DNA of 64,000 nt, taken from positions 1,381,001-1,445,000 of the forward strand of contig JANSYA010000001.1 in assembly GCA_024742665.1 (NCBI GenBank), in the 5' to 3' direction. The translations under genes and the position numbers were made by a program. This document shows positions 10,425 through 29,284 of this stretch, piece after piece. The notes under the pieces were generated by a model. The model made no database searches and was not told the DNA's origin. It saw only the letters and a program-made list of their open reading frames with translations. Position 1 is the first letter of the stretch. Every line of letters begins with the position of its first letter. The DNA comes from a bacterium. GTDB taxonomy: Bacteria > Spirochaetota > Leptospiria > Leptospirales > Leptonemataceae.

Positions 10425-10560
10425 GGGATTGACGTTGACGCGGGTGTCGCGCCCGCCAGACTGCCGGGCCTGGGAGGAAGTCGGGTGTAAATCCCGCGCT
10501 GACCCGCAACTGTAAGCGTCGCCGAAACGCGCGCAAGCCAGATCTTCCCTGTGAATCAGA
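10425..10560 (+). ncRNA. Cobalamin (B12) riboswitch upstream of the cob operon
   Basis: The conserved core is easy to read: GGAAGTCGGGTGTAAATCCC, GCGCTGACCCGCAACTGTAA (about 10476-10515), followed by the B12 box AAGCCAGATCTTCCCTG (about 10534-10550). The 5' side contains the expected GACGCGGGTGTCGCGC paired region. Outer limits are approximate. It lies about 150 bases before the cobD-cobQ start and should repress the operon when adenosylcobalamin is plentiful. Whether the platform acts on transcription or translation was not resolved. Confidence 0.95.
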
Positions 10561-10711
10561 GCCTCGTGGAGCAGGCGATTCGCGATTCGCTGACCGGCGG
10601 CACCGTCCGAAGCAGCGACCATCCCGACCCTCTACGATTTCTGATTGATTCCGCCCCGTTCGGCGGTTCGTCGCTGGCCATTCAAGCGCAGCGGCGAGCG
10701 AACAGAATCGA

Positions 10712-13576
10712 ATGAAACTGGATATCGCGCATACAAAGGGGACGCGGCCCGATCCGGCCGGAGTCCTGGAAAATCCGGAGCACGCGGTGCACGGCGGCGA
10801 TCGTCAGGCTCTGGCCCGGCGTTTTGGCGTTCCGGCCGGCGACATCATCGACTTCAGCGCCAGTATCAATCCCCTCGGACCCCCGGAGTGGCTGCGCCGC
10901 GAAATCAGTCGCGTGCTCGCCGATGTCGCGCACTATCCCGAACCGCGCAGCGAATCTCTGTGCGAATTTCTGGCTAAGGCGTGGGGACTGCCGGTCGCAA
11001 GCGTCGCCGCGGGCAACGGCGCCAACGAATGGATTTACGCTCTGCCGCGACTGTCGCGCATCGAGCGCGTCGTGATTCCGGCGCCGGCCTACGTCGACTA
11101 CTCCCGCGCTGCCCGGGCCGCCGGCAAAACGGTCCTGAATATTCAGGACCGTCTTGCCAGCACGCCGGCCGCGCCGCTTGCCTCGGATATACTCCGCGAA
11201 GAATCGCCGCCGCGAAATTTAGCGGATGCGCTGCTGCCCGGGGATTTGATTTATCTGGGACATCCCGGCAATCCGACCGGCGAGCTTCTGGATCGTGCGC
11301 GGCTCGTGCAGCTGGTGCGTTCGCGTCCCGACGTGTTATTTGCAATCGACGAAGCCTTTCTTGAGTTTATCGACGACGCTCCCGTAAACGATGCGAAGTC
11401 TCTGTCGCTGCTCGGCGAAGTGAGCGCCGCGCAAAATCTCGTGGTCCTGCGATCGTTTACGAAGTTTTTCGCCGTGCCCGGATTGCGCCTGGGTTGCATC
11501 GCCGCCAGTCCGCAGCTCGTGCGCGAACTGAGCGATTTGATTCCGGACTGGTCCGTGAATTTTTTCGCGCAGTCGATCGCGCCGCGCCTGCTTGCGGATC
11601 ATGACTATGCTTGCGCGACGCGGTCCGCGGTCGCGAAATCCCGCGCGGTCTTAATCGAAGGTCTGCGTTCGAAGGCCGCGCTGCAAGATCGGCTCGAAGT
11701 GGTTTCCGGTCGGGCGAATTATTTATTGCTGCGCCTCCGGGATGCGGCGCCCATGTCTGCGCGCGAATTCGCGGAGCGCCTGCTCGCGCGTGATCGGATC
11801 GCCGTGCGCGCTTGCGATAATTTCGAGGGTCTCGGCGGCGCCGACACGCGGTATCTGCGCATCGCGGTTCGGACAGACGCCGAAAACGAAGTGCTGCTCC
11901 AGGCTTTCGCCGACGCCCTGCGCGGCGAAGATCGCGAAGCGGCCGCGCCGGAACTGAAGGCCGACGACGCAACGAAGGCAGGAGTCGCGAGTCGGGCTGC
12001 GAAAGCGCAGACGAAATTAAGAACGCCGTCGAAAACACCGGCTTTGATGCTGCAGGGCACGTCTTCGAATGCGGGCAAGAGCGTCATGACAGCGGCCTTT
12101 TGCCGGATCTTCTTACAGGACGGCCTGCGGGTCGCGCCCTTTAAGTCTCAGAACATGTCGCTGAATTCGTACGTAACGAGCGACGGTCGTGAAATCGCGC
12201 GGGCCCAGGCGGTGCAGGCGGCGGCCTGTCGCCTGGCGCCGGATATTCGCATGAGCCCGGTGCTGCTCAAGCCGGGTTCGGAGACCGGTTCCCAGGTACT
12301 GGTGAGCGGCCGCCCGGTCGGCCACATGTCGGCTCTGGAATATCAGACCTACAAGGCGACGGCTTTCGAAACCGTGCGCGAAAGCTACGATAGCCTCTGC
12401 GATGAATACGACGTGATCGTTCTGGAAGGGGCGGGCAGTCCCGGCGAAGTCAACTTAAAGCAAAACGACATCGTAAACATGCGCATGGCCGAGTACGCCG
12501 AAGCGGCGGTGCTGCTCGTCGGCGACATTGATCGCGGCGGCGTCTTCGCCGGCTTTGTCGGCACGCTGGAAGTGCTCGCGGAGTGGGAGCGCAAGCTGGT
12601 GATCGGCTATCTCGTGAATCGCTTTCGCGGCGACGCGCGTCTTTTGGGCGACGCCTTCGATTATATGCGCGAACACACGGGCCTGCCGATTCTGGGCGTT
12701 GTGCCGTACCTGCGCGGCCACGGTCTGCCGGAAGAGGATTCCGTAACCTTCAAAGAGGACCTGCACTCGAATTCAGAAAATCCGGCGGGCGCGGCTTCAG
12801 ACGGCGCGCAGATTCTGGAGATCGTATTTATTGATTTACCCTTCGTTTCGAATTTCACCGACGTGGACGCCCTGCGCATTGAACCCGACGTGCGCGTTCG
12901 GGTCCTGCCGGTCGGCGCGAGCCCCGACCAAATCGGCGCAGCCGACGCGATCGTTTTGCCCGGCACGAAAAACAGTCTCGCCGACCTGGACTATCTGAAG
13001 CGCCAGGGCCTGGCCGATCGCCTGGTCGATCTCGCGCAGCGGCCGGATGGGCCGGTGGTCGTTGGAATTTGCGGCGGCTATCAGATGCTCGGCCAATCGA
13101 TTCGCGATGCCGGGGGCGTTGAGTCGCATCGCAATGTGGGCGCGAGTGCCGGGGTGAGCGGCCTGGGACTTTTGCCTGTGAGCACTGAATTCGCGCCGGA
13201 GAAAACTCTGCGCCAGACGCGCCGTCGCCACCGGGAATCCGGTCTCGAAGTTTTCGGCTACGAAGTGCACCACGGCCAGACGACTGGATTCGCGCCGGGG
13301 GCCCGCGCGTTTTTTAGCGACGACTCGGAAGGTGCTTCGGGCGGGCTGGGCGTCGTTCGCGCCGACGGTCGGGTCTGGGGCACCTATCTGCACGGCGTAT
13401 TCGACGCCGATGAATTTCGCCGCTGGTTTCTGGATGGTCTGCGCGAACGCAAGGGCCTGAGGCCTTTCGGACGGGTGCAGGCGACCTTCGATCTGGAGCC
13501 GGCCTTCGAACGCGTGGCCGCCGCGGTGCGCGAAAACGTGGAGCTGGATACGATCTATGACAGGCTCGGCCTGTAG
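10712..13576 (+). CDS. cobD-cobQ: Fused threonine-phosphate decarboxylase and cobyric acid synthase
   Basis: This is a 954-residue fusion. Residues about 1-405 are a fold-type I PLP enzyme of the CobD/CobC type: HGGD at 27-30, [26 protein letters not shown], and PLP-Lys251 in [14 protein letters not shown]. It makes (R)-1-aminopropan-2-ol phosphate from threonine phosphate. After an Ala/Lys/Thr-rich linker (about 405-440), residues 441-954 form CobQ/CbiP: P-loop-like [30 protein letters not shown], then a glutamine amidotransferase domain with nucleophile Cys787 in [10 protein letters not shown] and a catalytic His in TYLHGVFD. It amidates cobyrinic diamide to cobyric acid. Joining these two steps yields cobyric acid and its attachment partner together. 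It is the first gene after the riboswitch. Confidence 0.95.
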
Positions 13577-14168: not shown

Positions 14169-15725
14169 ATGAGCGGCGCTTACAAAAATATTCCGGCTTT
14201 GATTGTCGCGGGCACCGGCAGCGGGGTCGGCAAAACTTCGATCGCCCTGGGGCTCGCCCGGGCGCTGCGCGAGCGCGGTCTTCGCGTGCAGCCCTTTAAG
14301 GTCGGCCCCGACTATCTGGACCCGACCTGGCTTACGGCGGCGGCGGGACGCACCTGCTATAATCTGGACGGCTGGATGACCGACCGGGAGTACGTGACCG
14401 CTTCGGTTTTCGAAAAACAGTGCCGCGACGCGGACATCGCGATCATCGAAGGCGTAATGGGTTTATTCGACGGCGCTTCGCCGGACGCCCTGACCGGCAG
14501 CACGGCGGAGATCGCGCTGTGGTTAGACGCGCCGGTGCTGCTGACCGTCGACGTGGGCGGCGCCGCGCGTTCCGCCGCTGCGATGGTCAAAGGCTTCGCC
14601 GACTTCGAAGCGGGCGTGCGGCTGGCGGGCGTCATCGCCAACCAGTGCGGCTCGGCCGGCCATGCGGAGATCGTCGCGCGGGCTCTCCAACATGCCGGGC
14701 TGCCGGCCTTGATTGGCTGGCTGGCGAAAAAATCGCTGCCGACTTTGCCCGGCCGGCATCTGGGACTGCATGCGGCGCACGACCGCGCGAATAGCGCGGA
14801 GCTTTTAACTGAGCTCGGACGTATCTGCGCGGAACAAATGGATATGGCCGGCCTGTTAAATATCGCGGGATTCGATGATCGTCGGCGCGCCGAAGCGACT
14901 GAAGCGACTGAAGCGACTGAAGGGCCTGAAGCGACGGAGGCGCACTCTGCGTCCGGGCGCGACGCCGGCGATAACGCCAGCACAGAAGCGGCTCCAACTT
15001 TCGAGACGACCGCGGCGAATCAGCGCGATGGAGTCCGCATCGCCGTGGCCCGGGACGCCGCCTTTTATTTTTATTACGCCGACAACCTGAGTCTGCTCGT
15101 CGATGCGGGCGCGGAGCTGATCGAGTTTTCGCCCCTTGGCGATCGTGAGCTGCCGGCGGGCGTGGACGCGGTCTATATCGGCGGGGGCTATCCCGAAGAA
15201 CACGCTCAGGAGCTGGCCGCGAACGCAGGGATGATCGGCGATCTGCGTCGCTTCGCCGCGCAGGGCGGCATGATCTACGGCGAGTGCGGGGGCCTGATGT
15301 ATCTTTCGAAGTCCTTGCAGACGGTCGGCGGCGAAGATTTTGAAATGCTCGGACTCTTACCTTTTGCCAGCCGAATGTTAGAGAAGCGAAAGATGCTCGG
15401 CTACGTCGAAACGACTTTCGTCGTCGACACGTGCTTCGGTCCGGCTGATACGCGGCTGCGCGGCCACGAGTTTCATTATTCGGAGCTTGTGCCCGACGAG
15501 CAGGCGGAAGCCGGAGTCGAGCGAGTATTCGTCCTGCGTGGGCGGCGGAATCAGGCGCCGCGCCCGGAAGGCTTTCGCAATCCGGCGGGCAATGTCCTGG
15601 CCAGTTACGCCCACCAGCACTTCGGCTCGCATCCGGAAGCGGCCCGAAATTTCGTGCGAGCGCTTCGAGAGCGCCGGCACGAAATTTCGAGCAGAGGGCC
15701 GGTCGCCAGCGAGGCACAGCTATGA
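14169..15725 (+). CDS. cbiA: Cobyrinic acid a,c-diamide synthase
   Basis: CbiA/CobB family, 518 residues. The N-terminal dethiobiotin-synthetase-like ATPase (about 1-235) has P-loop GTGSGVGKTS (15-24), PFKVGPDYLDP and EGVMGLFDG. The C-terminal glutamine amidotransferase (about 285-505) has nucleophile Cys in YGECGGLMYLS and His in GHEFHYSELV. It amidates side chains a and c of cobyrinate. The interdomain linker (about 238-280) contains a short EATEATEATE repeat encoded by 9-base units. The stop codon overlaps the next start (ATGA, 15722-15725), implying coupled translation with the LonB-like gene. Confidence 0.95.
   Translation: MSGAYKNIPALIVAGTGSGVGKTSIALGLARALRERGLRVQPFKVGPDYLDPTWLTAAAGRTCYNLDGWMTDREYVTASVFEKQCRDADIAIIEGVMGLFDGASPDALTGSTAEIALWLDAPVLLTVDVGGAARSAAAMVKGFADFEAGVRLAGVIANQCGSAGHAEIVARALQHAGLPALIGWLAKKSLPTLPGRHLGLHAAHDRANSAELLTELGRICAEQMDMAGLLNIAGFDDRRRAEATEATEATEGPEATEAHSASGRDAGDNASTEAAPTFETTAANQRDGVRIAVARDAAFYFYYADNLSLLVDAGAELIEFSPLGDRELPAGVDAVYIGGGYPEEHAQELAANAGMIGDLRRFAAQGGMIYGECGGLMYLSKSLQTVGGEDFEMLGLLPFASRMLEKRKMLGYVETTFVVDTCFGPADTRLRGHEFHYSELVPDEQAEAGVERVFVLRGRRNQAPRPEGFRNPAGNVLASYAHQHFGSHPEAARNFVRALRERRHEISSRGPVASEAQL
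14891..14942 (+). repeat. In-frame 9-bp repeat in the cbiA interdomain linker
   Basis: About five copies of GAAGCGACT (some degenerate) encode EATEATEATEGPEATEA between the ATPase and amidotransferase domains of CbiA. Because units are nine bases, copy-number changes keep the frame. Confidence 0.85.
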
Positions 15726-17062
15726 AAGCGACACTTTCTGAAACGGGTATGTCTCCCGACGAACTGCACGTATTAAACGCTCTGTTTGATGAGGGTGAGG
15801 GCCCGGACAGCCAGCAGGATACGAGCCGCGTGGAAATTCCGGAGCAGGTCATCGATCGCATTGTCGGTCAGGATCGCGCCGTCGAAATGGTGCGTCTGGC
15901 CGCGCGCCAGCGGCGATTTTTGTTGATCGTCGGCGAGCCGGGTACCGGCAAGAGCCTGCTCGGACGCGCGACGGCGGATCTGCTGGAGCTGGACCGGCCC
16001 GAACATCGCTTACAGGATCTGGTGGCCTTTGAAAATTCGACGAATCCGTCCCAGCCGGAAATTCGCGCCATGGCGACGGGCGAAGGCGCTGCGGCGGTTT
16101 TGAAGGCGCGGCAGCGCACGCGTCGCAGTCGGGCATCGGAAAGCTTTTTGTTTTATACGGCGGCCTTCGCGTCCGCTTTTCTGGGCGTCTTCTTTTTCTT
16201 GCGCGAAGATCGCGATTTCTGGTATCTGATCGTCGGTGGACTCGGGGCTCTGTTTTTCGCATATATGCGGCGGCGCGCGGCGAAGCGCGGAGACCGGCGC
16301 ACGCCGCGAATTCTGGTGGGCCATGCGGACGCCGGGCGAGCGCCCTTTGTCGACGCGACGGGCACCCGGGACGGCGCGCTTTTGGGCGACGTTCGCCACG
16401 ATCCGTATCAGTCAGGCGGTTCCGAAACTTCACCTCATCATCTATTAGAGGCCGGTGCCATTCATCGCGCGCATCGCGGCGTTTTGTACATCGATGAAAT
16501 CGCGACGATCAGCATGGAGTCGCAGCAGAGTCTGCTGACGGCGCTGCAACGCCGCGCGATGCCGATTCTCGGGCGCAGCCCAGGTTCGAGCGGAACCATG
16601 GTGCAGTCGAACGCCGCGCCCTGCGATTGTCTGTTGGTAGTGGCCGGCAACGTCGAGGACGTGCAGCATATTCACCCGGCTCTGCGTTCGCGCATTCGCG
16701 GGTACGGCTATGAGATCTATACGAAGTCGGTGATGCCCGTGAACCGCGAAAACGCGCGGGCACTGGTGCGCTTTGTCGCCCAGGAAGTTCGCAGCGACGG
16801 ACGGATTCCGCATTTTTCGAAAGCGGCGGTGGCCTGCGTGCTGGCGGAAGCGCGACGGCGCTCCGGTCGTGAACATCATTATACTTTGCGTCTGCGCGAA
16901 CTGGGCGGACTCGTGCGCGTCGCGGGCGATCTGGCCGTGCTGGAAGATCGCGAAGCGCGCCGAACGGAATCGCATCACGTGAAGCGCGCGCTGAGCCATG
17001 CGCTCAGTCTGGAAGAACAGATGGCCCGCGAACTGCGCACGCCGGGAACGGAGGAATCATGA
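15722..17062 (+). CDS. LonB-like membrane AAA+ ATPase lacking the protease domain
   Basis: This 446-residue protein matches the ATPase half of archaeal-type LonB: Walker A GEPGTGKS (71-78), two closely spaced membrane helices (about 141-160 and 166-181) between Walker A and B, LLGDVRHDPYQSGG, EAGAIHRAHRGVLYIDEI (Walker B 253-259), ALRSRIRGYGYE, and LRLRELGGLVRVAGD. Archaeal LonB continues with an S16 Ser-Lys protease domain. Here the protein stops after SLEEQMARELRTPG, and the stop overlaps the start of cbiX (17059-17062), so the protease is absent, not displaced. It also overlaps cbiA by 4 bases. Co-translation between a diamide synthase and the cobalt chelatase suggests a membrane-bound unfoldase, or an AAA+ motor for metal insertion by analogy with CobS/ChlI. 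Neither role is shown. Confidence 0.9.
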   Translation: MKATLSETGMSPDELHVLNALFDEGEGPDSQQDTSRVEIPEQVIDRIVGQDRAVEMVRLAARQRRFLLIVGEPGTGKSLLGRATADLLELDRPEHRLQDLVAFENSTNPSQPEIRAMATGEGAAAVLKARQRTRRSRASESFLFYTAAFASAFLGVFFFLREDRDFWYLIVGGLGALFFAYMRRRAAKRGDRRTPRILVGHADAGRAPFVDATGTRDGALLGDVRHDPYQSGGSETSPHHLLEAGAIHRAHRGVLYIDEIATISMESQQSLLTALQRRAMPILGRSPGSSGTMVQSNAAPCDCLLVVAGNVEDVQHIHPALRSRIRGYGYEIYTKSVMPVNRENARALVRFVAQEVRSDGRIPHFSKAAVACVLAEARRRSGREHHYTLRLRELGGLVRVAGDLAVLEDREARRTESHHVKRALSHALSLEEQMARELRTPGTEES

Positions 17063-18312
17063 ACGCACCTGTATCCGAAGATCATCTCAAGACCGCAGTG
17101 GTTCTGATCGGCCACGGCAGTCGTCGGGGCAAGGCCAACGTCGGCTTCGAAAAATACGTCGCGGCCTATCGCGCGGCGCATCCCGAGTATACGGTGAGCC
17201 ACGGCTACGTCGAACTGGCCGAACCCTTTATGGGCGACGCCATTCGCGACGCCGCGCGGGATCATGACCGCGTCGTCGCAATGCCGCTGCTTTTATTTCG
17301 CAGCGGTCATGCGAAAAACGATCTGCCGATGGTTCTGAATGAAATTCGAAGCGAGTTCCCGGAGCGCGAACTGCTCGCCGCCGATACCCTGGGCGTGCAT
17401 CCCGATCTTTGCGATCTGGTCTTTCGCCGGGCGAGCGAAACCGAGCTGATGCCCGCGGCGAAGACTTCAGTCGCCGCCGGCGATGACGACGATCGCTATA
17501 AAGCGGCGCTGGCGAATACGGCCGTGATCTTCGTCGGACGCGGTTCCAGCGATCCCGATGCGAACGGCGATTTTTATAAACAGATGCGAATCTTCGCCGA
17601 AGGCCGCGGCTTTGGCTGGGTGCTGCCGTGTTTTATCGGGATTACCGAGCCGAGCCTGGACCAGGCTTTGAATTTGATTTCGCGCACGAGACCGGAGCGC
17701 GTAATTCTCGCGCCGTACTTTCTCCAGCCAGGCGTGCTGATCGAACGCATTCGCGAGCAGGTGGAAAAATTTCGCAAAGAGTATCCGTGGGTGCAGGCTG
17801 CCGTCGCGGATCCCCTGGGAATGGACGATGCGATCTTAAACGTCGTGCACGAGCGCATTCGCCAGGCTCTGAGCGGTCAGAACGCGCTGCCCTGCGATAC
17901 CTGTAAATTTCGCGTGGCGATGCCCGACCAGGAAGAACACGTCGGCGGACTCAAGGCGCTGCTGTGGAGCGCGCGCCACAGTTTTACGCATAATCAGGCG
18001 ATGCCCCACGAACACGCGCACAAACCGATTCGAAAACACGTGCTGGTCTGCGGGAACGTCGACTGCGCCGCCAACGGCAGCATTCGAGCGCTGACGGCTT
18101 TGCGCAGCGGACTGAAACGCCGCGGTCTGCTCAAAGAGGTGCTCGTGACCCAGACTTCGTGTATGGGGCACTGCGGCGCGGGACCGAACGTTGTGGTCTA
18201 TCCTGACGGAATCTGGTACCGGGGCGTGGTCGAGGGCGATATCGAAGAGTTGATTGACGAGCACCTGGTGGGCGACCGACTGGTTGCACGACTGGTGGAT
18301 AATATTATGTGA
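17059..18312 (+). CDS. cbiX: Sirohydrochlorin cobaltochelatase CbiX fused to a 2Fe-2S ferredoxin
   Basis: This 417-residue protein has two CbiX halves and a C-terminal thioredoxin-like 2Fe-2S domain. The first half (about 10-130) has both metal-handling histidines of the family (LIGHGSRRGK and FRSGHAKNDLP). In the second half (about 148-280) the same positions read GRGSSDP and LQPGVLIER, so it has lost both and is likely structural. Residues about 335-410 carry four cysteines as C-x4-C (VCGNVDC) and C-x3-C (SCMGHC), the pattern of the ferredoxin family. It inserts Co2+ into sirohydrochlorin, the entry to the anaerobic route. The Fe-S domain may sense redox state or be structural. Confidence 0.93.
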   Translation: MNAPVSEDHLKTAVVLIGHGSRRGKANVGFEKYVAAYRAAHPEYTVSHGYVELAEPFMGDAIRDAARDHDRVVAMPLLLFRSGHAKNDLPMVLNEIRSEFPERELLAADTLGVHPDLCDLVFRRASETELMPAAKTSVAAGDDDDRYKAALANTAVIFVGRGSSDPDANGDFYKQMRIFAEGRGFGWVLPCFIGITEPSLDQALNLISRTRPERVILAPYFLQPGVLIERIREQVEKFRKEYPWVQAAVADPLGMDDAILNVVHERIRQALSGQNALPCDTCKFRVAMPDQEEHVGGLKALLWSARHSFTHNQAMPHEHAHKPIRKHVLVCGNVDCAANGSIRALTALRSGLKRRGLLKEVLVTQTSCMGHCGAGPNVVVYPDGIWYRGVVEGDIEELIDEHLVGDRLVARLVDNIM

Positions 18313-18756: not shown

Positions 18757-18759
18757 TTG

Positions 18760-20697
18760 ATGGCCGTTCCGCGCAAAATAAAAATCGCTGCGGTCGAAGA
18801 CGTCCGCGATACGCGCATTCTTACGCTGCAATCCGAAGAGCCGATTGGCTTTCTGGGCGGGAAGTGGTTGATGATCAATTCCCACAAGCCCCTCGGCGAA
18901 GGCAAGTGGGCGAAGCGCGCCTACTCGATCTTCAGCGGCGACGGCGAGCAGTCGCAGTGTAAGATCGCCGTGAAACGAATTCCCGACGGACCCGCTTCGA
19001 ATTATTTGCACGACGAGGTCGGCGTGGGCGATGAGCTTGAATACAGCGGGCCCTACGGCAAACTCTTTCACATCTACGAAGACGACGCGCCGGGGGTGCT
19101 ACTCACTGCCGCCGTCGACACGGGCATCACCGCGATTCTGGGCGTCTTAAACAGCGAACGCGCGCGGCCCTTTTACGATCGCGTGCGCATCTTCTGGTTT
19201 TTGAGCGACGAAAGCTATTTTCTGGATCCCGACTACGTGCGCAAACATCTGCCGCCGGAGTTACGCGATCGCCTGAGCGTTCATACGATCGATGCGATCG
19301 GCGAAACGACGCGCATGGACCAGGCGCGCGAGATTCTGGAACGGGATCTCGCGGCGAACGAACGCCCGGATCTGGCGATGATCGCCGGTGACGGGCACGT
19401 CTTGTATTCGCTGCGAACGGCTTTATTATTAAACGGACTCGGCGAAGAACAGATTCGCAAAGATACTTTCTTTAACAGCACCGATAAGAAACCGCCGCCG
19501 AAGAATCAGGCGAATTTACGCACGGGCTATACGACCGGGGCGTGCTCCGCCGCCGCCGCCCGGGCCGCGACGCGCATGCTGCTTTCGGAAACGCCGGCCG
19601 ATCGGTTTCCCGATCGCATCGAATCCGTTTTGCCTAACGGCCAGTCGGTCGTCTTTCCGCTCAAACGACGCGAACGCGACGGCGACGCGGCGGTGTGCAG
19701 TATCATTAAAGACGGCGGCGACGATCCGGACTGCACGCATCTCGCGGAGCTGATCGCCCGGGTAGAGTTAAGCGATAGTCCCGGAGTTGAAATTCGCGGC
19801 GGCGTCGGCGTGGCCACGGTTACGCTGCCCGGTCTGGGTCTCGAAGTCGGACAGCCGTCGATTACGGGCATGCCGCGCAAGAATATCACCGAGATGGTGC
19901 AGGCGGAACTCGACGGGGCGGCGGCTGATGGCTCTGGCGCCGGCGTCGCGGGCGACTTTAAAAAGGCCGCGGGCGCGATCGTTACGATCGAAGTGCCCGA
20001 CGGCGAAGAGCGTGCGAAGCAGACGACGAACGAACGCCTGGGATTGATCGGCGGCATTTCGATTCTGGGAACGACCGGCATCGTAAAACCCTACAGCACC
20101 GGCGCCTTTCGCACGAGCGTCGTACAGGCGATCGACGTGGCGGCCCGTCGCGGCTTAAAAGAAGTGGTCCTGACGACCGGCGGCAAATCGGAAGAGTACG
20201 CCATGCGCGAAAATCCGCACCTCGGCACGGACGCCTTCGTGCAGGTCGGCGATTTTATCGGCACCGGCGTCAAACACGCCAAACGCCGGGGCATTCCTCG
20301 CACGACCATCTTCGGCATGATGGGCAAGCTTTCGAAGATGGCCGACGGCGTTACGCAAACCCACCAGGCGGGTTCGCAGGTGAATATGGAGATGCTCGCG
20401 GAGCTTGCGAAAAGCCTGGGCGCGGTCGACTCGGTCCTCGAAGAAATTCGCGCCGCGAAGACCGCGCGACGCGTGCTGGAGCTCGCGGTTGAACACGGCT
20501 GGCCGCAAATCGCCGGCCTGATCTGCGAGCGCGTCGCCCACGTGATGACGAATTATGCGAACGGCCGGGCGAAGACCGAGCTGACACAGCCGCCCGAAAG
20601 CATTGATGAAGAATTCGAGATCGTGTGCTGCATGACCGACTTTGACGGCGTCATGCTCGGGCAATATCCACTGGCGGAAAATGTGCGACCGGTCTGA
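18760..20697 (+). CDS. cbiD: Flavin/NAD(P)H reductase domain fused to CbiD (cobalt-precorrin-5B C1-methyltransferase)
   Basis: This is a 645-residue fusion (ATG 18760, with TTG 18757 as an alternative). Residues about 1-245 form a ferredoxin-NADP+ reductase-like module: FAD motif RAYSIFS, a beta-barrel ending in SGPYGKLF, a nucleotide motif AAVDTGITAILGV, and a C-terminal MIAGDGHVLYSLRTAL strand-helix. Residues about 250-645 are CbiD: LRTGYTTGACSAAAARA, GVGVATVTLPGLGL, GIVKPYSTGAFR, TTGGKSEEYA. CbiD methylates C1 of cobalt-precorrin-5B to give cobalt-precorrin-6A, and the next step is reduction of that product by CbiJ/CobK. No CbiJ is visible in this window, so the fused reductase is a strong candidate for that reaction. 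Confidence 0.93.
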   Translation: MAVPRKIKIAAVEDVRDTRILTLQSEEPIGFLGGKWLMINSHKPLGEGKWAKRAYSIFSGDGEQSQCKIAVKRIPDGPASNYLHDEVGVGDELEYSGPYGKLFHIYEDDAPGVLLTAAVDTGITAILGVLNSERARPFYDRVRIFWFLSDESYFLDPDYVRKHLPPELRDRLSVHTIDAIGETTRMDQAREILERDLAANERPDLAMIAGDGHVLYSLRTALLLNGLGEEQIRKDTFFNSTDKKPPPKNQANLRTGYTTGACSAAAARAATRMLLSETPADRFPDRIESVLPNGQSVVFPLKRRERDGDAAVCSIIKDGGDDPDCTHLAELIARVELSDSPGVEIRGGVGVATVTLPGLGLEVGQPSITGMPRKNITEMVQAELDGAAADGSGAGVAGDFKKAAGAIVTIEVPDGEERAKQTTNERLGLIGGISILGTTGIVKPYSTGAFRTSVVQAIDVAARRGLKEVVLTTGGKSEEYAMRENPHLGTDAFVQVGDFIGTGVKHAKRRGIPRTTIFGMMGKLSKMADGVTQTHQAGSQVNMEMLAELAKSLGAVDSVLEEIRAAKTARRVLELAVEHGWPQIAGLICERVAHVMTNYANGRAKTELTQPPESIDEEFEIVCCMTDFDGVMLGQYPLAENVRPV

Positions 20698-25791: not shown

Positions 25792-26202
25792 ATGGCAAAG
25801 ACTGGCAGAATCGCGGGCGGATTGATCGCGCAAAGCGGCGAAGACTATTATCTGGTGGGGGAGTTGAAGATTCCCTGCGATTGGGCGGCGGCGGGCTTCG
25901 AAGATCCCGGCGAAATCAAGGCCTTAGAACGACACTATCTCAAGTTAACGCCGCTGGCGGACGCGCGTCCCGAAATCTCCGAGCCCTATCTGGAAATCGA
26001 TCTGGAAGGCGAAAAGCTCGCTCAGCTGCTGTACCGGCGACTGGTGATTCATCGCAACGCGTCGGTCTCAGAGCGCCTGTGGGATTTGATCTTCGACGCT
26101 GAAGAAAACGAAGGGCAAACGGTCGTGAACGCCGACTGGCTGGCCCGCATGCCGGAAGAAATCTGGGAGATTGTGCGCGACGAAGTGCTGCAATGCCTCT
26201 GA
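25792..26202 (+). CDS. Uncharacterised 136-residue protein between cbiH and cbiF
   Basis: This is a small acidic soluble protein. The N-terminal half looks beta-rich (AGGLIAQSGEDYYLVGELKIPCDW) and the C-terminal half helical (KLAQLLYRRLV, ERLWDLIFDAEENEG, EEIWEIVRDEVLQCL). Two cysteines are present, one near residue 29 and one at the penultimate position. There is no signal peptide, membrane helix or cofactor motif that I recognise. Spacing to both neighbours is short (33 and 57 bases) and codon use matches the operon, so it is probably a real operon gene with a cobalamin-linked role not assigned here. Confidence 0.75.
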   Translation: MAKTGRIAGGLIAQSGEDYYLVGELKIPCDWAAAGFEDPGEIKALERHYLKLTPLADARPEISEPYLEIDLEGEKLAQLLYRRLVIHRNASVSERLWDLIFDAEENEGQTVVNADWLARMPEEIWEIVRDEVLQCL

Positions 26203-26259: not shown

Positions 26260-27033
26260 ATGAAAGTTTATATCATCGGAGCGGGTCCCGGCGACCCCGA
26301 ATTGATCACCAAAAAAGGAGCGCGTCTGATTTCAGAATGTCCGATCGTCCTGTATACGGGATCCCTGGTGCCGGTGGAAGTCTTAAACACCGCCGCTCCC
26401 GACGCGAAGGTGCTCGATTCAGCCGGCATGACTCTCGACGACATCGTCGACATCTTTTTGGAAGCTCAGAAAAACGACCAGGACGTGGCGCGCGTGCACA
26501 CCGGCGATCCCGCGATCTACGGTTCGACCGCCGAACAAATGCGCCGCCTGCGCGAACACGGCATTGAATACGAAATCGTGCCGGGGGTTTCGAGCTTCGC
26601 GGCGTCTGCTGCGGCGCTCGGCAAAGAGCTGACCTTACCCGAGCTTTCGCAGACGATTATCGTCACACGTATGGAAGGCCGCACGCCCATGCCCGAGGGC
26701 GAAAAGCTCGCCGATCTCGCGCGGCACCAGTCGACGATGGTTTTGTTTTTGAGTATTACGCTCGTGAAGCAGGTCGTGCGGGAACTCGCGCCGGTCTACG
26801 GCGAAGACTGCCCCGTGGCGATCGTATATAAAGCGAGCATGCCCGAGCAGCGCATCATCGAAGGCACGCTGGCCGACATAGAGGAGAAGTGGAAGGCCGC
26901 GGGAATCAAATCCCAGTCGATCATCATCGTCGGTCGCGTTTTGACTTCCGAAGATTTCGCCGACTCGCGTTTATACGCGGCCGACTTTCATCATAAGTTT
27001 CGGCCGGCCGCGCCGCGCACGCCGAACCAGTAG
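26260..27033 (+). CDS. cbiF: Cobalt-precorrin-4 C11-methyltransferase
   Basis: CbiF/CobM family, 257 residues. Motifs: VYIIGAGPGDPELITKKGA, YTGSLVPVEVL, VHTGDPAIYGSTAEQM, VPGVSSFAASAAALG, and VVYKASMPEQRII. It methylates C11 after ring contraction. It is the last gene of the riboswitch operon. Its 3' end overlaps the convergent gene on the minus strand by 43 bases. Confidence 0.95.
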   Translation: MKVYIIGAGPGDPELITKKGARLISECPIVLYTGSLVPVEVLNTAAPDAKVLDSAGMTLDDIVDIFLEAQKNDQDVARVHTGDPAIYGSTAEQMRRLREHGIEYEIVPGVSSFAASAAALGKELTLPELSQTIIVTRMEGRTPMPEGEKLADLARHQSTMVLFLSITLVKQVVRELAPVYGEDCPVAIVYKASMPEQRIIEGTLADIEEKWKAAGIKSQSIIIVGRVLTSEDFADSRLYAADFHHKFRPAAPRTPNQ

Positions 27034-27677
27034 CCGGCGACCATTCCCAGAGCGACGACGCTCAAAAGTAAAAACAACGAACGAAAAATCGAGCCGGCCG
27101 GCGGCGAAAGTCCTTCGACCGCGACGACGAACTGCGCGTCCAGAGCTTCGCCTCCGCTCCGCTCGCGAGCGAGAATCCGCACGCGATGCTGGGCGCCGTC
27201 GAAAAATTGCTGGCCCCATACCCAGGAACCGTCGGTCGCGCCGCTGTTCGTTTCGAAGACGAGCTTATCGTCTTCGATGTGATCAAAACTCAGCTGAAAT
27301 TGCGCTCCTCGCACCGGCCGCCCGCCGCGTTCCAGGCGCAGGACCAAATAGGCGATGTCGCCGACCGTCGCGTTTAAATCTTCGTTTTGCGCATGCTGGC
27401 GCGCGTAATCGAGAGCAAGTTCGTGCAGGGCGTCGGTCGAGTCTTCGGCGCCAGCGGATGCTTCTAAAGCCGCGACCGGCACGAGCTTCGCCGTGAGCTT
27501 TAAGCCGGCGTGGCGATTCGCGGTGTAGTCGGCGGTCTCTTCGGACGAAGGCTGAGGATCGTGGGCCTGGAGCGCGAGCGGCGCAATCAGCACGGCCGAA
27601 GCGAGTGCGCTTGCCAGACTGATGCGTGCAAAGGCCCGGGAGCGCAGGCGCAGGCGAAAGATGCGATCGAGGTTCAT
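26991..27677 (-). CDS. Exported membrane-anchored protein of the cbtB locus (228 residues)
   Basis: The N-terminal signal peptide (about residues 14-38, cleavage probably before HDPQPSS) would leave a mature protein starting at His. An extracytoplasmic domain of about 150 residues contains a beta-sandwich-like segment with AYLVLRLERGGRPVRGAQFQL. A single C-terminal membrane helix (about 200-220) follows. The arrangement of signal, beta-domain and C-terminal anchor resembles NikL/NikK-type accessory proteins of nickel and cobalt uptake systems and also FixH-like proteins. I cannot assign a family firmly. It overlaps the preceding gene by 4 bases (27674-27677), so the two are co-translated downstream of cbtB. 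Confidence 0.75.
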   Translation of the reverse strand: MNLDRIFRLRLRSRAFARISLASALASAVLIAPLALQAHDPQPSSEETADYTANRHAGLKLTAKLVPVAALEASAGAEDSTDALHELALDYARQHAQNEDLNATVGDIAYLVLRLERGGRPVRGAQFQLSFDHIEDDKLVFETNSGATDGSWVWGQQFFDGAQHRVRILARERSGGEALDAQFVVAVEGLSPPAGSIFRSLFLLLSVVALGMVAGYWFGVRGAAGRNL

Positions 27678-28276
27678 GAGTTTGCTCCGCTATTGGATTG
27701 GGCCGCCTGGTCGGCGACGGCGCTCCGTCCGAATACGATGCCGGCCAGTCCGCCGAATACGAAGAGCACGCCCATGAGTAGGAAGAGGTTGAACACTTCG
27801 CCCGGATTTTCCCTGAGGCTGAAAGCGAACTCCTGGCGTATAGGCGCAATCGATGGATCCAGAGGCGTGGCGACGACTCGCAGCCGATATTCGCCGCGAA
27901 TCGGAAAGAGATAGCGCAGCGCATGTTCGCCGCTTGCGTCGGTCGCCGCTTCAGCGCGCATCAGCCGGGTGCCTTCCACGATTGGAAAGTCCGTCGACAC
28001 CAGCATATTCCGGGGCGGCGCGTCCAGTTCTACTTGCAGTCGCGCTGGAATCGGATCGCCGGTCGCCGTGCGTACGCGCAGGACTAACTGTGCGACATCT
28101 ACGTCGGGTCCGATGCGGTCGGCGGCGGGCTTCAGTTCATACTGAATACTTGCGCCCGAGTCAGAGAAGAGAGCGCCCGGCGCGGAGCAGAGCAACGCGA
28201 CGAGGCATACCGCACGCGAAAGCCTTCGCACGCTGCGGTTTAACAACGAGTGACTGGTCCTGAGTTCTGATTGCAT
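27674..28276 (-). CDS. Exported membrane-anchored protein of the cbtB locus (200 residues)
   Basis: It has the same layout as its downstream neighbour: a signal peptide (about residues 18-39), an Ig-like or FixH-like beta-domain (AQLVLRVRTATGDPIPARLQ; GEHALRYLFPIRGEYRLRVVA) and one C-terminal membrane helix (about 164-186). It starts 4 bases after the cbtB stop. The pair could be the extracytoplasmic part of a cobalt transporter controlled by the upstream cobalamin riboswitch. No catalytic residues were seen. Confidence 0.75.
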   Translation of the reverse strand: MQSELRTSHSLLNRSVRRLSRAVCLVALLCSAPGALFSDSGASIQYELKPAADRIGPDVDVAQLVLRVRTATGDPIPARLQVELDAPPRNMLVSTDFPIVEGTRLMRAEAATDASGEHALRYLFPIRGEYRLRVVATPLDPSIAPIRQEFAFSLRENPGEVFNLFLLMGVLFVFGGLAGIVFGRSAVADQAAQSNSGANS

Positions 28277-28280
28277 AGTA

Positions 28281-28484
28281 TTAGTGGCAGGGAATCATCA
28301 TTAAGCCGTGGCGCATTTCATGAAAATAATCATGAACCGGCGGATAGGTCGTAAACAAGACCGCGTACAAAACAATGCCGGTGATCGTTAGCAGAATCGC
28401 GGCCTTGCTGAGCACGGTCAGATTCAAAGTGTGTAGCAGGCGCACGTGTTTTTTCGCCTGATTGTATGCTTGATGTTGTGTCAT
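28281..28484 (-). CDS. cbtB: CbtB-type cobalt transporter subunit
   Basis: A 67-residue protein with one membrane helix (about 23-46) and a histidine-rich C-terminus (VHDYFHEMRHGLMMIPCH) characteristic of the proposed cobalt transporter subunit CbtB. A Shine-Dalgarno GGAG precedes the ATG. CbtB is usually paired with the multi-helix CbtA, and no CbtA is seen nearby. It is the first gene downstream of the minus-strand cobalamin riboswitch. The histidines and terminal Cys probably bind Co2+. Confidence 0.88.
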   Translation of the reverse strand: MTQHQAYNQAKKHVRLLHTLNLTVLSKAAILLTITGIVLYAVLFTTYPPVHDYFHEMRHGLMMIPCH

Positions 28485-28794
28485 AGTCTTGCTCCTGAAT
28501 AAATTTCAATGGAATAGCCGAAGAATCGCCAGGGCGTTCGTGCGGGAGCCAATGGCGCGATACTTCTGGCGGGCTCGATCGGCATACACGTCTTCGCCGC
28601 GGTCGATAGCGTTCGCAGCGAAAGCCGGCGCGGCGATCAGCCGGCGCAGCGCGACTGTGGCCGGAGCATGGACGCTGCTTCGTGGTCGGGGAAATCTGCT
28701 TCGAATCATAGGGCTCTGGAGTTTGCGGGCAGTTGTCAGTGTGCCGCAGGGAGCCCTCGCGAATTTGTGCGGGGTACGATTTCGGCCCATTCCA
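28485..28794 (-). other. Long leader between the second riboswitch and cbtB
   Basis: About 300 bases separate the riboswitch core from cbtB. An open frame of 94 codons exists here on the minus strand (28506-28790), but it is Arg-rich, has no recognisable domain and looks like chance. No tRNA or clear terminator was seen. The riboswitch expression platform probably lies at the upstream end. Confidence 0.4.
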
Positions 28795-28935
28795 CGGGGC
28801 GGATCGTAAGGGAGATCTGGCTCAGGTCGCTTGCTCCGAAACGAGGAGGGCGGCCATTACAGTTGCGGGTCAGCGCGGGAATTTCACCCGACTTCATCCC
28901 TGAAGCATCGCCAGTGTCGAAGCTCCCGGCCCGGC
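28795..28935 (-). ncRNA. Second cobalamin (B12) riboswitch, upstream of cbtB
   Basis: Read on the minus strand, the core GAAGTCGGGTGAAATTCCC, GCGCTGACCCGCAACTGTAA (28895 to 28856) is almost identical to the first riboswitch, and the B12 box GAGCCAGATCTCCCTTA lies at 28823-28807. Limits are approximate. It begins directly after the ankyrin gene on the same strand and points towards cbtB, which ties this transport-like cluster to cobalamin status. Confidence 0.95.
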
Positions 28936-28936
28936 G

Positions 28937-29284
28937 TCAAGGATTTGGCCGGCGAGCCGCTTCAAGCTCCGCCCGGATTTGTTCGTAGCCGTATTCGCGC
29001 GCGAAGTCCAGGGCGCCGTCGTCGACCCGCGCGCCGCTCTCCAGCAGCAGCGCGACCATTTCCAGATGGCCCTTGAAGGTCGCCACGTGCAGCGGGGTCC
29101 AACCGCCCTTGCCGACGGCGTGCAGATCCGCGCCTCCCGCCAGCAAGCGCCGGGCGGCGTCGAGATCACCGCTGTTGGCGGCTGAGTGGAGAGCGGAGTT
29201 GCGGGGCATGGCGATCGAGTCTGAAATAGCGTCTTGCGCGCTTTCTTCCATCATAGAGACGGCCTGCGCCAGGGCCAGCGGCAA
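28937..29284 (-). CDS. Small ankyrin-repeat protein
   Basis: A 115-residue protein with about three ankyrin repeats: SALHSAANSGDLDAARRLLAGGADL, then GWTPLHVATFKGHLEMVALLLESGA, then a short third repeat (ALDFAREYGYEQIRAELE). Start may be at 29284 or at an internal ATG about 25 codons later, where the first repeat begins. No signal peptide. It would mediate protein-protein contacts; the partner is unknown. Its stop lies just before the second cobalamin riboswitch. Confidence 0.8.
   Translation of the reverse strand: MPLALAQAVSMMEESAQDAISDSIAMPRNSALHSAANSGDLDAARRLLAGGADLHAVGKGGWTPLHVATFKGHLEMVALLLESGARVDDGALDFAREYGYEQIRAELEAARRPNP

Follow-up and report, generated by a model that had tools for sequence, protein, structure and literature searches.

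Cobalt transporters are often recognised by their control through B12 riboswitches (PMC7689651, PMC3766115), and the combination of an AdoCbl riboswitch with a location outside B12 operons is a standard route to such assignments (PMC7689651). In Leptospira licerasiae, a riboswitch and the cbtB/cbtA pair are found directly upstream of the adjacent cob operon (PMC3493377, PMC4758666). CbtB has long been annotated as a 'probable cobalt transporter subunit', with no worked-out mechanism in the literature searched. Further along the pathway, chelatases of the CbiX type work without ATP (PMC7689651). Here we describe a LonB-type AAA+ ATPase, hereafter LonBx, encoded in a cob operon within a 64,000-nucleotide stretch of Leptonemataceae DNA (the window, to which coordinates refer unless a locus is named). 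LonBx probably serves as the ATPase subunit in a B12-controlled module for cobalt acquisition. The proposed module has four parts: a CbtB-like protein, two proteins named A and B, and a protease-dead LonB. The literature searched contains no description of this module, nor any account that links a LonB-type ATPase to the supply of cobalt or cobalamin.

The LonBx gene and its relatives

LonBx is a 446-residue protein encoded from an ATG start at 15722-17062 (+). Its residues 33-436 align to positions 6-400 of TIGR00764, the LonB model of 608 positions (E 4e-127, 425 bits), and among PDB entries it matches the LonB construct 4zpx best (E 6.5e-111). The sequence-only reading had described an intact ATPase half combined with a missing S16 protease domain, and both observations are confirmed. 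Motif reading identifies Walker A (GEPGTGKS, residues 71-78; 15932-15955, +), Walker B (GVLYIDE, residues 253-259; 16478-16498, +), an arginine-finger region HPALRSR from residue 318 and a sensor-2 LRELGG from residue 391. Two membrane helices are predicted between Walker A and Walker B by a Kyte-Doolittle scan (residues 142-160 and 164-182; 16145-16267, +). Profile search of LonBx returned no match to Lon_C (PF05362) or an S16 domain, and it is because this protease part is missing that the score falls below the TIGR00764 cut-off of 516.6. LonBx is the only LonB copy in its genome, which also encodes a separate full Lon on contig C18 (S16 match, 272 bits).

The gene shares four bases, ATGA, with each of its neighbors and is translationally coupled to both: it overlaps cbiA at the stop codon of the latter (15722-15725) and cbiX at its start codon (17059-17062). 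The sequence-only reading had also reported these four-base overlaps. The upstream neighbor is cbiA/cobB (14169-15725, +; NF002204, 485 bits), and the downstream neighbor encodes a fusion of the CbiX chelatase (PF01903, E 2e-46) with a 2Fe-2S ferredoxin-like domain (fdxn_Clost, E 1.5e-16) at 17059-18312 (+). A cobalamin riboswitch lies 5' of this operon (10430-10585, +; RF00174, 36.8 bits, above gathering). A protein of about 410 residues is encoded before CbiX in similar cob operons of two Leptospiraceae MAGs (L003, L005) and one Lentisphaerales MAG (L004). The recurrence of the same protease-less gene at this position argues that LonBx is not a product of chance.

The operon contains several further unusual genes. 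A 954-residue fusion of a CobC/CobD-like aminotransferase with CobQ, the cobyric acid synthase (10712-13576, +), is also found in L003, L004, L133 and L136. Within CbiA, a short repeat encoding TEATEATEGPEATE (about 14875-14983, +) forms a linker expansion, and none is present in the CbiA of L003 or L004. DUF3209 is located between the CbiX-ferredoxin fusion and a fusion of CbiD to an FAD-binding reductase domain (18757-20697, +); together, these two fusions suggest that redox chemistry is coupled to early cobalt insertion. Finally, a 136-residue ORF without a Pfam family (25792-26202, +) is encoded between cbiH and cbiF, a position kept in L003, L004, L005 and L136, and represents an undescribed cob-operon protein.

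The scan for LonBx relatives took in one genome per species, with capped genome searches, and the top 80 among 180 related loci were used. Archaeal relatives carry about 180-290 residues beyond the ATPase where the contig allows, corresponding to the protease. Two further MAGs, L043 (labelled Proteobacteria) and L046 (Oligoflexaceae), encode short forms at sites apart from the query-set cob genes. In Paenibacillales, a LonBx homologue was found in 7 of 350 genomes. These proteins are longer (about 774-1016 residues) and carry a HEAT-like part at the N-terminus and an S16-like part at the C-terminus. In seven Paenibacillales relatives, the serine of the archaeal GDSAS motif is replaced, mostly by F, Y or I. 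In Paenibacillus sp. Soil522 (L010, 9506-12556), a 1016-residue fusion combines the HEAT-like part, the LonB ATPase, a dead S16-like domain and a BluB-like nitroreductase domain. A vWA-type partner within this fusion was considered and rejected, its C-terminus consisting of the dead S16-like and BluB-like domains.

Taken together, the short and serine-less forms indicate that all complete members have lost either the protease or its activity and keep the ATPase motifs. Among LonBx relatives the AAA+ core motifs are invariant or near-invariant, and two such hydrophobic helices occur in every family member scanned (Kyte-Doolittle). Automatic annotation can miss this loss: the LonB-like protein of L128 (6688-9012) lacks the catalytic serine and still scores 532 bits against TIGR00764, above the cut-off, and would therefore be called a protease. 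Some 'ATP-dependent protease LonB' entries are thus not proteases. No LonBx relatives were found in viral contigs. In a maximum-likelihood tree built from 39 ATPase domains, which is read without a root and has some long branches, the 13 module members are split from 26 archaeal LonBs with support of 100/99, a topology consistent with one origin of the module-type LonB.

Partner genes and riboswitch control

The partners of LonBx were found from the neighbors of copies unlinked to cob genes. In relatives from five phyla, these partners are CbtB, A and B. All four parts are present in the window, where CbtB-A-B (28484-26991, -) is encoded on the opposite strand, immediately beyond the cob operon, so that LonBx and CbtB-A-B belong to separate transcription units ~10 kb apart. 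The sequence-only reading had not included this constant set (26991-28484).

The CbtB-like protein (28281-28484, -) has 67 residues, one membrane helix and a C-terminal HDYFHEMRHGLMMIPCH motif. It scores just above the cut-off of the Pfam CbtB family PF09489 (28.0 bits, cut-off 27) and well below that of NCBIfam TIGR02459 (18.4 bits, cut-off 64.4). PF09489 is above its cut-off in 8/8 module CbtBs tested. Across the family, these proteins are 63-100 residues long and have a single membrane helix; their C-terminal motif, HD..H..RH.....PCH, is conserved in 13 loci.

Protein A (200 residues; 27674-28276, -) is predicted to comprise a signal/anchor helix at the N-terminus, an Ig-like beta sandwich and, at the C-terminus, a membrane helix (AlphaFold2, mean pLDDT 83). 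Protein B (228 residues; 26991-27677, -) shows the same layout (mean pLDDT 75) and overlaps A by four bases. Neither has a Pfam or NCBIfam family above cut-off, and fold search of A and B returned generic Ig-like domains only, with weak matches, among them the copper-binding PmoD and CrdA, that are not decisive. Both families are present in all complete module loci, and they are fused in L043 and L046.

The module genes are adjacent in L003, L004, L005, L010, L043, L046 and L127-L132. Leptospiraceae, Lentisphaerales and two other Gram-negatives (L043, L046) have them in the order CbtB-A-B-LonBx, and Paenibacillales in the order A-B-CbtB-LonBx. In L003-L005 the complete CbtB-A-B-LonBx set stands before cbiX. 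In genome G009 (L133), CbtB directly precedes a LonBx that is cut by the contig end, with no A or B seen at the locus. A CobW/COG0523-like GTPase, recognised by eye and possibly a metal chaperone, is encoded near the module of G777 (L130, 12477-13481).

Riboswitches accompany these genes in most settings. In the window, CbtB-A-B is preceded by a cobalamin riboswitch of its own (28793-28941, -; RF00174). It has a recognisable core and scores 26.5 bits, with E 9.7e-5 when 701 bases are searched, which is below the gathering threshold (31.5). In L004, L010, L043, L127, L128, L129, L131 and L132, Rfam places a cobalamin riboswitch 19-222 nt 5' of the first gene of the module. Among these, L128, L129, L131 and L132 are riboswitch-headed modules with no query-set cob gene in the 16-17 kb examined (for L131, among the matches listed). 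The riboswitch of L003 lies 5' of the cob operon. For L130, Rfam found no riboswitch, and a stretch resembling the B12-box core (GCGCAAATG...CCGCCACTGTAATGG) can be made out by eye 5' of the A gene. The gene row of the L046 module begins with a TonB receptor, and 5' of it lies an AdoCbl riboswitch that scores slightly under the gathering threshold. This receptor (L046, 3071-5206) is encoded directly before CbtB, the A-B fusion and LonBx, and is a candidate outer-membrane receptor for cobalt or corrinoids; it has no close solved relative and gives weak BtuB and siderophore-receptor scores.

This distribution bears on the function that the sequence-only reading had proposed for LonBx, namely help with cobalt insertion or protein remodelling by analogy with CobS and ChlI; LonBx would then be a motor or remodelling factor for CbiX or another cob enzyme. 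The ATGA overlaps that link LonBx to cbiA and cbiX, and the same pre-cbiX position in L003, L004 and L005, are consistent with such a role. However, genome G004, of the same family, keeps the order cobC-cobQ, btuR, cbiA, cbiX-ferredoxin, DUF3209 and FAD-cbiD with nothing between cbiA and cbiX, and CbiX therefore does not need LonBx. In five Paenibacillales bearers the ATPase is encoded away from any cob gene, yet beside CbtB, A and B, and CbiX-type enzymes work without ATP (PMC7689651). The chelatase AAA+ models match LonBx weakly (TIGR02442, 24 bits vs 779; TIGR02031, 20 vs 500), and the module contains no gene for a vWA partner or a large CobN/ChlH subunit. A chelatase motor is thus a very unlikely role for LonBx.

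Co-occurrence with B12 synthesis and a proposed cobalt-acquisition module

The broader claim of the sequence-only reading, an undescribed component tied to cobalamin synthesis, is borne out by co-occurrence. It had named the presence of the ATPase in genomes without cob genes as the observation that would speak against this tie; CbiD is instead present in 14/14 module-bearing genomes (four from the window's order, seven Paenibacillales and three others). Within the window's order (30 genomes), CbiD occurs in 6 genomes and the ATPase in 4, all of them CbiD carriers (Fisher p 5e-4), and in Paenibacillales CbiD occurs in 141/350 genomes and in 7/7 bearers (Fisher p 0.0016), p-values that are optimistic because the genomes are related and several are MAGs.

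Two known cobalt transport components were sought in these genomes. CbtA (PF09490) was found in 0/8 module genomes tested, that of the window included. In L. licerasiae, as published (PMC3493377, PMC4758666), cbtB/cbtA occupy the spot where L003-L005 have CbtB-A-B-LonBx, which suggests that A, B and LonBx replace CbtA at an equivalent locus position. The CbiM S-component (PF01891) is absent from the window's genome and present in 2/14 bearers (G013, G777). Within Paenibacillales, it occurs in 1/7 bearers vs 12/24 CbiD-positive controls (p = 0.10); mutual exclusion of the module and CbiM was accordingly rejected as a trend that is not significant. The cob-positive relatives G003 and G004 have neither the ATPase nor CbiM, and other cobalt routes therefore exist.

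The preferred reading of these data is the four-part module introduced above. Co2+ is the likely substrate, judging from CbtB, the riboswitches and the linkage to cob genes, and gene order points to a complex that LonBx would form with CbtB, A and B. In this complex, the beta-sandwich domains of A and B, outside the membrane, may capture or hand over Co2+, and CbtB may carry the ion through its conserved His/Cys motif. A LonBx hexamer, anchored by 12 helices, would spend ATP to gate or push the CbtB/A/B complex, with A, B and LonBx taking the place of the polytopic CbtA. Cobalt would then be passed on to CbiX, and plentiful B12 would shut the module off through the riboswitches.

The main rival on substrate is corrinoid uptake, in which the AAA+ ring would energise an unusual importer of B12 or its precursors rather than of cobalt ions. 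Corrinoid uptake is also placed under B12 riboswitches (PMC3766115), and the gene row of L046 is headed by the TonB receptor with weak BtuB similarity. Against this, the CbtB family has a predicted role in cobalt transport, the module has no BtuF/BtuC-like part, and it is confined here to corrin-making genomes, as the universal presence of CbiD among bearers indicates. We consider corrinoid import unlikely.

The main rival on mechanism departs from import altogether. None of the module subunits shows a multi-helix permease fold like that of known importers, which argues against cobalt import and is consistent with an envelope device for metal storage, sensing or metallochaperone activity, in which LonBx would remodel A/B/CbtB or extract damaged membrane proteins. 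The weak resemblance of A and B to Ig-like domains, including those of copper-binding PmoD and CrdA, points in the same direction, as does the normal role of AAA+ LonB as a protein unfoldase. However, B12-repressed control and co-occurrence with cob genes favor cobalt supply, and the loss of the protease means that LonBx itself would not degrade what it extracts. Such a device is rather unlikely as the function of the module. Cobalt acquisition remains the preferred reading, and a bolder form of it is a doubtful but real possibility: a protease-dead membrane LonB ring might drive a new class of metal importer, neither ABC, ECF, P-type nor secondary permease, with CbtB as a one-helix carrier and two Ig-like membrane proteins.

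Comparison with known systems

The module can be placed against four described systems. It offers CbtB putative ATP-driven partners within a small, testable gene set, and for the Lon family it would represent a second life as a non-proteolytic membrane motor.

LonBx resembles the archaeal membrane LonB (TIGR00764; 4zpx, 3k1j): identity in the AAA+ core is about 43-51%, and the ATPase motifs are all shared, as is a pair of membrane helices at the same position. Unlike archaeal LonB, LonBx has no S16 domain, or, in Paenibacillales, an S16-like domain without the serine, and the module LonBs belong to a B12-controlled module and form a separate tree group.

The CobNST and BchHDI class I chelatases likewise tie an AAA+ ATPase to a tetrapyrrole metal pathway. 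In contrast to these enzymes, the module has no vWA or CobN partner, its AAA+ protein is of the membrane-bound LonB type, and CbiX is ATP-independent. The ECF-type transporters CbiMNQO and NikMNQO share with the module a B12-linked metal import, small membrane subunits and the use of ATP, import by the module being a proposal. Unlike them, the module has neither an ABC ATPase nor an S-component, and 12/14 bearers have no CbiM.

The predicted cobalt transporter CbtAB (PMC2667541) and the module both have a CbtB-like subunit with the HD..H..RH...PCH motif, a B12 riboswitch and a place before the cob operon. Whereas CbtAB pairs CbtB with CbtA, the module has no CbtA in the 8/8 genomes tested and carries A, B and the LonB ATPase instead. 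The module would thus be a variant of the CbtB kind, and a new class if the ATPase really drives import.
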